From: Tabrizicola sp.
GTDB taxonomy: Bacteria > Pseudomonadota > Alphaproteobacteria > Rhodobacterales > Rhodobacteraceae
Assembly: GCF_022842145.1 (NCBI RefSeq)
Contig: NZ_JALHQD010000003.1
Location: 406,042-470,041 of the forward strand
Direction: 5' to 3'
Length of the DNA stretch: 64,000 bases
Shown here: piece by piece, positions 1-42,328 of the stretch
How the letters are laid out: every line of letters begins with the position of its first letter
Position numbering within the stretch: the first letter of the stretch is position 1
Notes under the pieces: model-generated
Databases searched by the model: none
What the model was told of the DNA's origin: nothing
The model's input: only the letters and a program-made list of their open reading frames with translations
Program-made: the position numbers and the translations under genes

Positions 1-20
1 GGAGGGTGGGCGCCCGATGT
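1..20 (-). ncRNA. CcsR-like sRNA 4 (partial, cut by window edge)
   Basis: Bases 1-6 (GGAGGG) look like the end of another GGGAGGAGG element, followed by one arm of a GC hairpin (GGGCGCCC at 8-15). The other arm would lie outside the window. Spacing from the next copy is about 65 bases, matching the gap seen between the first and second sRNA units, so this is probably a hairpin of a fourth unit. Boundaries are inferred. Confidence 0.5.
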
Positions 21-44
21 CGTTCAGGCCTTTGCGGCCCGGAA

Positions 45-119
45 TGGGGGCGACGATGCCAGGGAGGAGGGTTGGCACCGTCGCTGATCCTGTCGGCCCC
101 GGGAGGAGGGTGGGGCCTT
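45..119 (-). ncRNA. CcsR-like sRNA 3 (two CCUCCUCCC hairpins)
   Basis: Read on the minus strand, two stem-loops each present CCUCCUCCC in the loop. The motif cores are at 101-109 (stem arms 95-100 and 112-117, GGCCCC/GGGGCC) and 62-70 (arms 50-60 and 74-84, GCGACG with an inner TGCC/GGCA). Two motif-bearing hairpins per RNA is the architecture of the CcsR sRNAs of R. sphaeroides, which are cut from the ccaF1 transcript and act in stress and C1/glutathione metabolism. The assignment to that family is by motif, structure and gene context; exact ends are not visible. Confidence 0.75.
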
Positions 120-127
120 GGGATGGT

Positions 128-200
128 CTGTGCGGCGGCACCAGGGAGGAGGTTGGCACCGCCGTAGTACCAGACGCCAGGGAGGAGGAGAGGCGTCCGA
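128..200 (-). ncRNA. CcsR-like sRNA 2 (two CCUCCUCCC hairpins)
   Basis: Motif cores lie at 180-188 and 144-152. The first hairpin has perfect arms GACGCC/GGCGTC (173-178, 192-197) with the motif filling the loop. The second has outer arms CGGCGG/CCGCCG (133-138, 159-164) with a small internal mismatch. The stems differ in sequence between copies while the loop motif is invariant, so the pattern is selected at the RNA level. Ends are inferred. Confidence 0.75.
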
Positions 201-224
201 TCAGGTTGGACCTTTCGGTCCGAA

Positions 225-305
225 GAAGGTGCGGCTTTGCCCAGGGAGGAGGGCGGGCATCGCCGCAGTCGTCACGGGTCCAGGGAGGAGGACGGACCCG
301 GACGA
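225..305 (-). ncRNA. CcsR-like sRNA 1 (two CCUCCUCCC hairpins)
   Basis: This unit begins right behind the ccaF1 stop codon. Motif cores are at 283-291 (perfect arms CGGGTCC/GGACCCG at 275-281 and 294-300) and 244-252 (outer arms GCGGC/GCCGC at 231-235 and 262-266, inner arms TGCCC/GGGCA). CCUCCU is the anti-Shine-Dalgarno sequence, so the loops could pair with ribosome binding sites or other G-rich mRNA targets. The match to R. sphaeroides CcsR is by motif, hairpin pairs and position downstream of a DUF1127 gene. Confidence 0.8.
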
Positions 306-308
306 AAC

Positions 309-524
309 TTATTTGCCGTAGGCCGCCTCGCGGGCGATATCGGCGATCCCGAGGCGCGAAATGCCGAGGTCGGTCAGCTCGCGGTCGGTCAGGGCATTCA
401 GTTCGGCCACAGTCTGGGCGTAGACACGGCGCTGGTTGATCGCGTTCAGGACGACGTCCTTCAGATGTGCCAGGCGGTCAGCGAAACCCTTGCGGGCAAT
501 GGAGTTGGTGTTCACATAAGCCAT
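309..524 (-). CDS. ccaF1: DUF1127 small RNA-binding protein, CcaF1-like
   Basis: A 71-residue basic protein with the DUF1127 pattern in its C-terminal half (LNALTDRELTDLGISR, then a short helix ending REAAYGK). I take ATG at 524: AGAGG lies ten bases upstream, whereas the in-frame TTG at 533 sits right against it. In R. sphaeroides the homologous CcaF1 binds RNA and helps mature the CcsR sRNAs encoded behind it. Here the first CcsR-like hairpin starts about eight bases after the stop codon, so one transcript and the same processing route are likely. That role is transferred from the family and not shown by the sequence alone. Confidence 0.88.
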   Translation of the reverse strand: MAYVNTNSIARKGFADRLAHLKDVVLNAINQRRVYAQTVAELNALTDRELTDLGISRLGIADIAREAAYGK

Positions 525-773
525 GTTACTCAAGCCTCTTCGGTTAGGTCAGCAACGTTCTGTCGCGCTGTTAGGGGTAACATGGACCTCATGCTGCAGA
601 TGCACAATAGCGGGTCTCGGCAATGCTGCCATGCAGCAAATGCATGGCTCAGGTCACGGAAATGTCATGATTTACCAAGGTCTTCGCCGAATTTTTGAGC
701 ATTTGGTCAACGGACCTTGCCCTTGCGGTGAAACGCTACGACCTTAGTGCAAATCTTCAGCGGAGTTGAAACG

Positions 774-1947: not shown

Positions 1948-2003
1948 TATCCTATCCAAGGTGAGTCGCTTCAAGACGGCTGGTTCCAACGGGAGGAGAC
2001 GAG

Positions 2004-2480
2004 ATGACCCATGACATTCGCACGGTGCTTTGGTTCAACGGCAGGGGCCACGAGGCGGCGGAGTTCTATTGCAGCCTGATCCCGAACAGCCGGGTGGAGA
2101 GCTCGTATTCGAGCAATAACGGCGGACCGGACGGCAATTCCTTCTTCGAGGTGGTGGATTTTCGCCTGAATGGCGTGCCCTACCAGATCCTTGATGCGGG
2201 GCCGATGTTCCCGCTGTCGGAATGCGTCTCGGTTTCGGTTCTGACGCCCGATCAGGCAGAAACCGACCGGCTGTGGGAGGCCCTGGCGGCGGGTGGGGGC
2301 AGCCACGGACCCTGTGGCTGGCTGAAGGACCGCTGTGGCCTGTCCTGGCAGGTGGTGCCGCAGCTTGTGTACGACCTGATGACCGCCCCGGACAAGGACC
2401 GCGCGGGGAAGGCGCTGGCGGCGGTGATGCAGATGGGCAAGATCGACATCGCCACCGTCTATGCCGCAGCCCGCGGATGA
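2004..2480 (+). CDS. VOC-superfamily protein (PhnB / 3-dmu-9_3-mt type)
   Basis: A 158-residue single-domain vicinal-oxygen-chelate protein of the type often mislabelled as 3-demethylubiquinone 3-methyltransferase. It starts LWFNGRGHEAAEFYCSLIPNS, shortened here to the FNGRGHEAAEFY core, and contains the family's C-terminal DRCGLSWQVVP segment. GGGAGGAG precedes the ATG. It is the first gene of the TetR-controlled operon and its stop overlaps the next start (ATGA). Substrate cannot be read from the sequence; detoxification or antibiotic-binding roles are known for related folds. Confidence 0.85.
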   Translation: MTHDIRTVLWFNGRGHEAAEFYCSLIPNSRVESSYSSNNGGPDGNSFFEVVDFRLNGVPYQILDAGPMFPLSECVSVSVLTPDQAETDRLWEALAAGGGSHGPCGWLKDRCGLSWQVVPQLVYDLMTAPDKDRAGKALAAVMQMGKIDIATVYAAARG

Positions 2481-41066: not shown

Positions 41067-42328
41067 GACCGGGGTCCCGTGAAGAAGTAGGGGCGGAGGG
41101 CGGTTTGCACCCGGGCCAGGGCCAGCGCGCGGGGCAGGGGATAGTGGCTGGCGCGGGCGGTGGCAATCTCGTCCGCGCCGAAATGTGACAGGAGCATCGG
41201 GTCGGGAAGGCGCTTGTCGGCAAGATCGCCGAGGAGAGCGTCCACCGCTGCCTGCGCCTGGGAGGATGGCCAGTAGTAGCGGATGCGGTCGGCAAGGCCG
41301 AAGTGGCGTTCGGTTCTGGGATCGGCGGTGGTGCCGTGGATGTGGCCCTGCCAGTAGGCGGGGTTTGCCAGCATCACCGCTTCCATCGTGTCGGGCAGCG
41401 AGGGGCCGGTTGCCCAGCCGTTCTGGGCGCGGATCGTGTCCAGGGCGTAAAGCGCCTCGCGCCAGGCGTAGGTCAGGGCGGGGCCGACCTTCTGGAAGGC
41501 GAAGCCAAGTTCCGCAAGGCGCGGATAGGCCCGGGGGTGCTGGTAGTCGGTCGAATGGGCTTCGAGGCAGAGGCGCGGCCAATCTTCAAGCGCGGAGAGG
41601 AGGCCGGGATCGCGGTCGAGGGGAAGGTGGTGGACTTCCATTGGCGAAAACTCGACGCCGGGCTGGACGACGAGGCCGCCGATCTGGTCGAGGGGAATTC
41701 CTGCCGCGGCAAAGGCGTCGCGGTGAGCAGCGAGCGTGGCCCTGGCCGCCTCGGGCGTGGTGGGGGGGATGTCGCCGTGGTCGTCGGTACGGGCGCCGCC
41801 GGGGGGCGGGACCTCGGTGCCGATCACGAAGAGGAGCTTTGCGGGGTCTGGGGCGTGCTTGCGGGCGGTGACGGCGAGGGCGGCGGAGCGGGTGGCGGTG
41901 ATGGCGTCGGCAAGCTGGGCGGATTCGCCGGCGCAGCCCTCGGAGCAGTCGAGGTGGATCTTGGTGAACCCCGCGGCAGCGTAGTCGGCGACCATCTGGT
42001 GCGCCTTCTGCATGGCGGCATCGGCGGGCAGCTTGCGCCAGGCCTGCGGGCCGAGGTGGTCGCCGCCGAAGAGGATGCGGGATTGCGAGACCTTGGCGCG
42101 CGTGGCGATGTCGGTGACGAAGCGGATGAAGTCGGCGGGTTTCAGGCCGGTATATCCGCCGTCCTGGTTGACCTGGTTCGAGGTGGCCTCGACCACGATG
42201 GGCTGGTCGAGGGTTTCGGCAAGGGCAAGGCAGGCTTCGAGAACATCGGGATGGGCGGTGCAGACCGACGGGATGGCGACGGTTGCGCCTGCGCGGTTCA
42301 GGGCGATGATCCGGGCAAGGTCAGGCAT
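41063..42328 (-). CDS. GatZ/KbaZ-family protein (tagatose-1,6-bisphosphate aldolase partner)
   Basis: A 421-residue class II aldolase-like protein: VAIPSVCTAHPDVLEACL at the start, ILFGGDHLGPQAWRKLP, and HSTDYQHPRAY. GatZ/KbaZ/AgaZ proteins accompany the catalytic aldolase subunit GatY/KbaY in galactitol and GalNAc catabolism; a tagatose-6-phosphate kinase role has also been discussed for the family. No GatY/KbaY or PfkB-type kinase is encoded in this window. It is coupled to the ROK gene (8-base overlap) and to nagA. Confidence 0.88.
   Translation of the reverse strand: MPDLARIIALNRAGATVAIPSVCTAHPDVLEACLALAETLDQPIVVEATSNQVNQDGGYTGLKPADFIRFVTDIATRAKVSQSRILFGGDHLGPQAWRKLPADAAMQKAHQMVADYAAAGFTKIHLDCSEGCAGESAQLADAITATRSAALAVTARKHAPDPAKLLFVIGTEVPPPGGARTDDHGDIPPTTPEAARATLAAHRDAFAAAGIPLDQIGGLVVQPGVEFSPMEVHHLPLDRDPGLLSALEDWPRLCLEAHSTDYQHPRAYPRLAELGFAFQKVGPALTYAWREALYALDTIRAQNGWATGPSLPDTMEAVMLANPAYWQGHIHGTTADPRTERHFGLADRIRYYWPSSQAQAAVDALLGDLADKRLPDPMLLSHFGADEIATARASHYPLPRALALARVQTALRPYFFTGPRS

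Follow-up and report, generated by a model that had tools for sequence, protein, structure and literature searches.

An expanded ccaF1-CcsR-type hairpin array in Tabrizicola sp. with a putative VtlR/LsrB-like operator in its promoter

The 64,000-nucleotide stretch of Tabrizicola sp. DNA analysed here (the window; G000:C3:406042-470041) has at its start the distal side of a long minus-strand array of hairpins, adjoining a gene for a DUF1127 protein. This ccaF1-like ORF, at 309..524 on the minus strand, encodes 71 aa from an ATG and matches Pfam PF06568 with 44.9 bits (cut-off 23.3). The initial annotation had placed hairpins directly behind a DUF1127 gene, and both the gene and this arrangement stand, whereas the end that it gave to the locus, 533, belongs to an upstream TTG (ORF 309-533) and not to the ATG frame. 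A candidate second DUF1127-type ORF, so classed by the look of its sequence and equipped with an AAGGAGG ribosome site, was observed on another contig (L202, G000:C4 near 79793). Six complete CCUCCUCCC motifs (283, 244, 180, 144, 101 and 62) lie on the minus strand of 1-305, with a seventh truncated at base 1, just as had been read from the letters. Exact GGGAGGAGG occurs at these same six positions (62, 101, 144, 180, 244 and 283) and nowhere else in the window; shuffling all 64 kb by dinucleotides yields a mean of 1.82 copies and at most 6, and the real six all fall inside 230 bases.

The intervals between motifs alternate between 36-44 nt and 64-66 nt. A covariance search with the CcsR family, as the initial annotation had proposed, returned eight minus-strand matches to the two-hairpin Rfam model CcsR1 (RF02791), with 26.6-50.2 bits and E-values of 5.4e-11 to 5.1e-4; they tile the array and so bear out the grouping of the hairpins in pairs, and all eight, including the best at 50.2 bits, lie under the gathering score of 65.3. 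Within the window, all on the minus strand, these matches define module 1 at 226..308 (motifs 283-291 and 244-252; L009 5268-5350, 50.2 bits, E 5.4e-11), module 2 at 127..205 (motifs 180-188 and 144-152; L009 5169-5247, 35.4 bits) and module 3 at 45..124 (motifs 101-109 and 62-70; L009 5087-5166, 47.8 bits). The start of a fourth module occupies 1..24 on the same strand, its motif being cut by an assembly gap. The model for ar14 (RF02344), an RNA that we take to be NfeR1, also matches the array (best E 3.8e-7) below its gathering score, and neither the window nor the five array loci scanned gave any gathering-level Rfam match; curated Rfam cut-offs overlook arrays of this sort. Matches to the Prion_pknot and 6C models were treated as chance.

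Many of the long intervals contain a small hairpin of their own, whose arms differ between copies, as in GGACC-GAAA-GGUCC and GGGGU-GAAA-ACCCC; some intervals fold otherwise. The first of these examples lies at 208..221 (minus strand) in a 64-nt interval and was recognised from its fold and from comparison with other intervals of 59-75 nt, while a second spacer hairpin of the window, with a GCAAA loop, occupies 25..43 (minus strand) and is identical to a folded interval in L009. No Rho-independent terminator was found in a scan of the array limited to loops of up to 8 nt. After the last hairpin comes CTTTCCCCCTT, which is pyrimidine-rich and without a clear T-run; T-runs of at least 5 occur at 5 of 28 array ends inspected, the present array not being among them.

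The arms of the hairpins change from copy to copy in a manner that preserves pairing. In 168 distinct hairpins, drawn from the present array and from 18 related loci, uninterrupted stems average 8.76 bp; with right arms exchanged between hairpins the mean falls to 4.60 bp, and the largest of 200 trials reaches 4.98 bp. Since the hairpins were chosen by their exact loop, loop constancy is here a matter of construction, and the control bears on the other part of the earlier reading, namely that the arms vary on maintained stems, which it upholds.

The array was suspected to run off the window, and it does so. A 10-N assembly gap (L009 5033-5042) immediately precedes window base 1 and lies inside a tandem repeat; beyond it, in the 8 kb examined around the window start, ten more complete motifs continue at L009 4581-5022, and after the last of these comes an ORF that by its appearance is putatively transporter-like. 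The array thus comprises 16 complete motifs and one cut, at least 17 in all, or about nine CcsR modules. The guess that the copy number might differ from four was therefore right, at about nine modules or more, and counting the hairpins in the adjacent sequence, as had been recommended, reveals that the first reading undercounted them. Two repeat copies 185 bases apart are identical over 138 bases with zero mismatches. On the other side of the gap lies a third copy, which has 119 bases in common with them, so that a 119-base stretch is present three times without a mismatch. Across the gap the repeat spacing is 129 instead of the 185 found elsewhere, for which reason the ten N probably conceal at least one further motif and the true count may be larger; with a scaffold gap inside a tandem repeat, the copy number in the assembly is to be read as a minimum.

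Upstream of the gene, a candidate minus-strand promoter at 580..607, proposed from the sequence and from an alignment of 20 upstream regions, consists of TTG (605-607), a 19-nt spacer and CCATGT (580-585). We take TTG-N19-CCATGT to be compatible with an RpoH-type promoter consensus; a search of the promoter region for a sigma-70-like site found none. This element lies downstream of a strongly conserved block in the same alignment that contains CAATGCTGCCATGCA, the core box (621-635 on the plus strand) of a putative VtlR/LsrB-like composite operator at 617..649 on the minus strand, the operator's second half-site being at 641-649. The box agrees in 14 of 15 letters with the VtlR-binding motif published as CAATGCAGCCATGCA in a paper that also describes VtlR as controlling, in Brucella, AbcR2 along with three DUF1127 proteins (PMC12595884). 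With zero mismatches, CAATGCNGCCATGCA has the ccaF1 promoter box as its sole site in the genome.

We searched for the box 100-560 bases before the first motif at 60 array-type loci, which are not independent, as some repeat one genome or are close relatives. With up to two mismatches it is present in 48 of the 52 loci having at least three motifs (25 exact, 15 with one mismatch, 8 with two) and in 4 of the 8 having fewer, against a background of one match elsewhere in the same loci over 389,286 positions times strands. The four loci lacking it among the 52 are L022, L025, L032 and L079; L022 is cut too short for the box, which the same array does have in L069. A 33-column operator matrix built from 52 ccaF1 promoters, this site among them, scores 53.8 at 617-649 and 11.2 at the next best site of the window. 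A one-mismatch copy of the box, CGATGCCGCCATGCA, was observed at 42009-42023 of the window; its matrix score is 11.2 and it is probably a chance occurrence. Genome-wide there are 6 near matches with one mismatch and 67 with two (3 for the backward pattern), and among the 30 of 74 box matches that were scored with the matrix the best, apart from the ccaF1 site, reaches 18.5. The excess of near matches probably stems from their GCCATG start-codon-like core, and we therefore do not count them as regulon members.

Regulators of the VtlR/LsrB type have so far been described mainly from root-nodule bacteria and their kin. LsrB in particular has been called unique to Rhizobiales (PMC11975290). With LsrB of Rhizobium halophytocola as the query, a protein encoded beside trxB with an ar15 (AbcR) RNA behind it, we found one clear best relative in every one of 29 family genomes, 15 of them array-bearing and 14 array-free; these best relatives are 39-46% identical to the query and score 230-276 bits, and no second match exceeds 139 bits. 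In Tabrizicola sp. it is G000:C8:9923-10792 (L150), at 253.4 bits, the runner-up in the genome scoring 134.6; it combines the LysR HTH and substrate domains (PF00126 and PF03466), and is identical to LsrB in 50 of the first 66 residues and in 70 of the remaining 226. The presence of such relatives argues that the restriction of LsrB to Rhizobiales is too narrow, though strict orthology may not hold, and 39-46% identity is no proof of an equal DNA preference. The trxB neighbourhood failed as a route to the regulator: trxB lies at G000:C12 95844-96749, with no LysR ORF near it, and on account of this separation we call the regulator LsrB/VtlR-like and not VtlR.

When run on both strands of the 3.9-kb regulator loci, the matrix derived from ccaF1 promoters has, in 23 of 28, its best match close behind the regulator (starting -10 to +190 from the regulator stop, a range fixed after the matches had been seen), with L155, L157 and L161 low-scoring among these successes. 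It failed in L141, L142, L146, L166 and L167, and L159 could not be evaluated. In the R. halophytocola LsrB locus there is no box with up to two mismatches, and there are two with three. The operator-like site sits between the LsrB-like gene and a SorX/SorY-like sRNA: a match to SorX and/or SorY lies within 300 nt behind the regulator, on the same strand, in all nine loci scanned (of thirty), the SorX model being above its cut-off in three of the nine and SorY in none. The corresponding sRNA of Tabrizicola sp. was observed at L150 1285-1361 (minus strand, G000:C8), where the suhB model, of the clan of ar15/AbcR, also matches weakly.

This arrangement resembles the VtlR/LsrB-AbcR regulon of Brucella, Agrobacterium and Sinorhizobium in having a LysR regulator, a 15-bp box, DUF1127 and anti-Shine-Dalgarno sRNA targets (here predicted), and an sRNA gene directly behind the regulator. 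In Agrobacterium the gene order is given as trxB, vtlR, abcR1, abcR2, and VtlR is described as binding the abcR1 promoter (PMC7486931). The present case differs in belonging to the Rhodobacteraceae, in the position of the regulator away from trxB, and in a neighbouring sRNA that matches the SorX/SorY models, with suhB matching only weakly. Our literature search found no paper linking a VtlR/LsrB-type regulator to Rhodobacter, DUF1127, SorY or CcsR; the main papers on CcsR, CcaF1 and cuckoo RNAs fell outside it, so that such a link could already be in print.

We favour control of the operon by a LysR protein through the box, with moderate confidence. The box might instead be the operator of another LysR-type or an unrelated regulator, or merely the mark of an RpoH promoter, its VtlR likeness being coincidental; this would accord with the absence of the LsrB-like gene from its Rhizobiales position beside trxB and with the description of R. 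sphaeroides CcsR as driven by RpoHI/RpoHII (PMC10253847). It appears doubtful in the face of the agreement in 14 of 15 letters with the published box, the one zero-mismatch site per genome, the sites that the ccaF1 matrix finds just behind the LsrB-like gene at 23 of 28 loci, and a DNA-binding end of the regulator sharing 50 of 66 residues with LsrB.

Arrays of this kind recur across the family. At least one motif pair at array spacing occurs in 295 of 394 family genomes, 15 of which have ten or more, the largest 25, and in 23 of 387 genomes of a class-wide sample, where the pairs outside the family are mostly single and look like chance. One genome of another family (G754) has nine motif pairs over several contigs and may represent a dispersed, Rhizobiales-type form. 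A DUF1127 gene lies just upstream in all 12 of the large arrays checked (the present locus and 11 of the 13 genomes whose arrays are large or belong to the same genus), and at least five motifs, up to 14, stand behind the DUF1127 gene in 16 of the 29 loci found in named genomes. The largest array observed, with 26 motifs and a repeating three-hairpin unit, likewise follows a DUF1127 gene (L069, G165:C1:333500-337800). Arrays with near-identical two- or three-hairpin repeats were also seen in L074 (G366), L075 (G358) and L073 (G272), and their sequences suggest repeated, independent tandem amplification. The array described here is thus a long member of a variable series and not unique: a known kind, expanded.

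Such amplification raises the possibility of a selfish or neutral minisatellite, with one or two functional modules and a remainder of tandem duplications without effect. The 119-base stretch repeated three times without a mismatch, the 138 bases shared by two copies and the widely differing motif counts of relatives are all in keeping with it, but older copies with quite different arms retain long stems, and arrays of at least five motifs follow the DUF1127 gene at 16 of 29 loci; we consider this explanation unlikely.

AbcR1/2, with the loop CUCCUCCC, and NfeR1 are described as repressing transporter mRNAs at the ribosome site through anti-Shine-Dalgarno loops (PMC8844928); if CcsR acts in the same way, genomes with arrays should retain complementary sites. 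We compared array-positive genomes (at least 5 pairs) with array-negative ones (zero pairs and at least 97% completeness), using 40 of 53 in each set, leaving out genomes with 1-4 pairs and subtracting, for the Tabrizicola genome alone, one site inside the array. The pattern GGGAGGAG-N4-10-ATG has a median of 5.62 sites per Mb in the 40 array-bearing genomes versus 2.47 in the 40 array-lacking ones (Mann-Whitney p 4e-7), a comparison uncorrected for kinship and for general Shine-Dalgarno preference. Among genomes of 3.5-4.9 Mb the values are 5.80 and 2.50 (32 and 21 genomes, p 5e-6), and the backward pattern, as a control, gives 0.58 against 0.65 per Mb (p 0.67).

Of the 25 matches of the GGGAGGAG type in Tabrizicola sp., one lies inside the array and one is a duplicate, which leaves 23 distinct sites elsewhere. 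ORFs of at least 100 aa begin at thirteen of these; all thirteen were scanned with Pfam, and at least one (L087) starts within its own domain, so that its assigned start may be wrong. Five of the thirteen are transporter substrate-binding proteins by Pfam, and the other ORFs include an ABC ATPase, RbsD/FucU, D-lyxose isomerase and acetyl-CoA synthetase. In a control set of 40 of the 75 AAGGAGG sites, 23 begin ORFs of at least 100 aa (15 scanned with Pfam, 8 judged by eye) and 2 of these are substrate-binding proteins; the enrichment, 5/13 against 2/23 (Fisher p 0.07), is weak and suggestive only. Within the window, the candidate target site GGGAGGAGACGAGATG, at 1991..2006 on the plus strand, covers the ribosome site and start codon of ORF 2004-2480, which matches Pfam PF06983 with 110.3 bits.

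That the hairpin row mainly titrates CcaF1, as CsrB does CsrA, the array thereby limiting the protein encoded beside it, seems improbable: the operon-like layout of an RNA-binding-type protein gene with repeated hairpins in 12 of 12 large arrays, and the report that CcaF1 of R. sphaeroides is an RNA-binding protein with an effect on CcsR maturation (PMC10253847), are compatible with it, but it leaves unexplained the twofold loop-complementary ribosome sites in array-bearing genomes, and CcaF1 is reported to act on many other RNAs (PMC10253847) and, in Agrobacterium, to stand in for a DUF1127 protein that works by protein contact (PMC12501420).

The closest known counterpart is the CcaF1-CcsR1-4 locus (cuckoo RNAs, CIN1 locus) of R. 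sphaeroides, described as encoding the 71-aa DUF1127 protein CcaF1 and four CcsR RNAs (PMC10253847); in both loci a gene for a 71-aa DUF1127 protein precedes, on its own strand, a tandem series of two-hairpin modules with CCUCCUCCC in their loops. The differences are the at least 17 motifs in about nine modules, the spacer hairpins, the recent tandem duplication, the sub-gathering Rfam scores and, possibly, the VtlR-like box. Hairpins with CCUCCUCCC loops and variable stems are likewise known from the Rhizobiales RNAs SmelA075 and SmelA099 and from ar14 (PMC3927594), which have three or four hairpins per RNA in dispersed copies, unlike the single, long, operon-linked array seen here. The DUF1127 ORF, the CcsR1 matches, the swapped-arm control and the same layout in relatives support the original reading of a CcaF1-CcsR type of locus, and we are highly confident that it is a CcsR-type anti-Shine-Dalgarno array. 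New here, and missed in the initial annotation, are the length of the array with its gap, the spacer hairpins and the promoter's VtlR-like operator; new too are the operator's putative regulator and the excess of ribosome sites that match the loops.

The explanation that we hold with fairly good confidence as a whole is an expanded ccaF1-CcsR locus furnishing anti-Shine-Dalgarno sRNAs under the control of stress and of a LysR protein, for which we infer transcription, processing, target repression and regulator binding. The VtlR/LsrB-related LysR regulator would switch the operon on by binding its operator at 617-649, and a single minus-strand transcript, starting from the RpoH-like promoter about 50 nt before ccaF1, would carry the DUF1127 frame and at least 17 hairpins, two to each CcsR module, many of the modules being separated by small spacer hairpins that covary. 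If the locus behaves like that of R. sphaeroides, RNase E and CcaF1 would process this transcript into two-hairpin sRNAs, about nine or more in number, with the hairpin copy number setting the sRNA dosage. Through their exposed CCUCCUCCC loops these sRNAs would base-pair with Shine-Dalgarno sequences of the GGGAGGAGG type and reduce translation, mainly of genes for uptake and carbon metabolism, so that the array would limit these genes as AbcR does in Rhizobiales; that the effect falls chiefly on them is an evenly poised matter.

A wider proposal, to which we give about an even chance, is that the Rhodobacteraceae possess a VtlR/LsrB-like circuit of their own, in which a LysR protein drives both an adjoining AbcR/SorY-like sRNA and a distant ccaF1-CcsR operon. 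The DUF1127 and anti-Shine-Dalgarno branches of the Rhizobiales circuit would here be fused in one amplifiable operon, whose hairpin number tunes the repression of nutrient uptake and with which the target sites have co-evolved. If this is true, the VtlR/LsrB regulator, the DUF1127 proteins and the anti-Shine-Dalgarno sRNAs would form one conserved circuit reaching past the Rhizobiales, and the CcsR arrays would gain a testable regulator, a predicted list of targets and a natural copy-number series, from 2 to 26 hairpins, for sRNA dosage.
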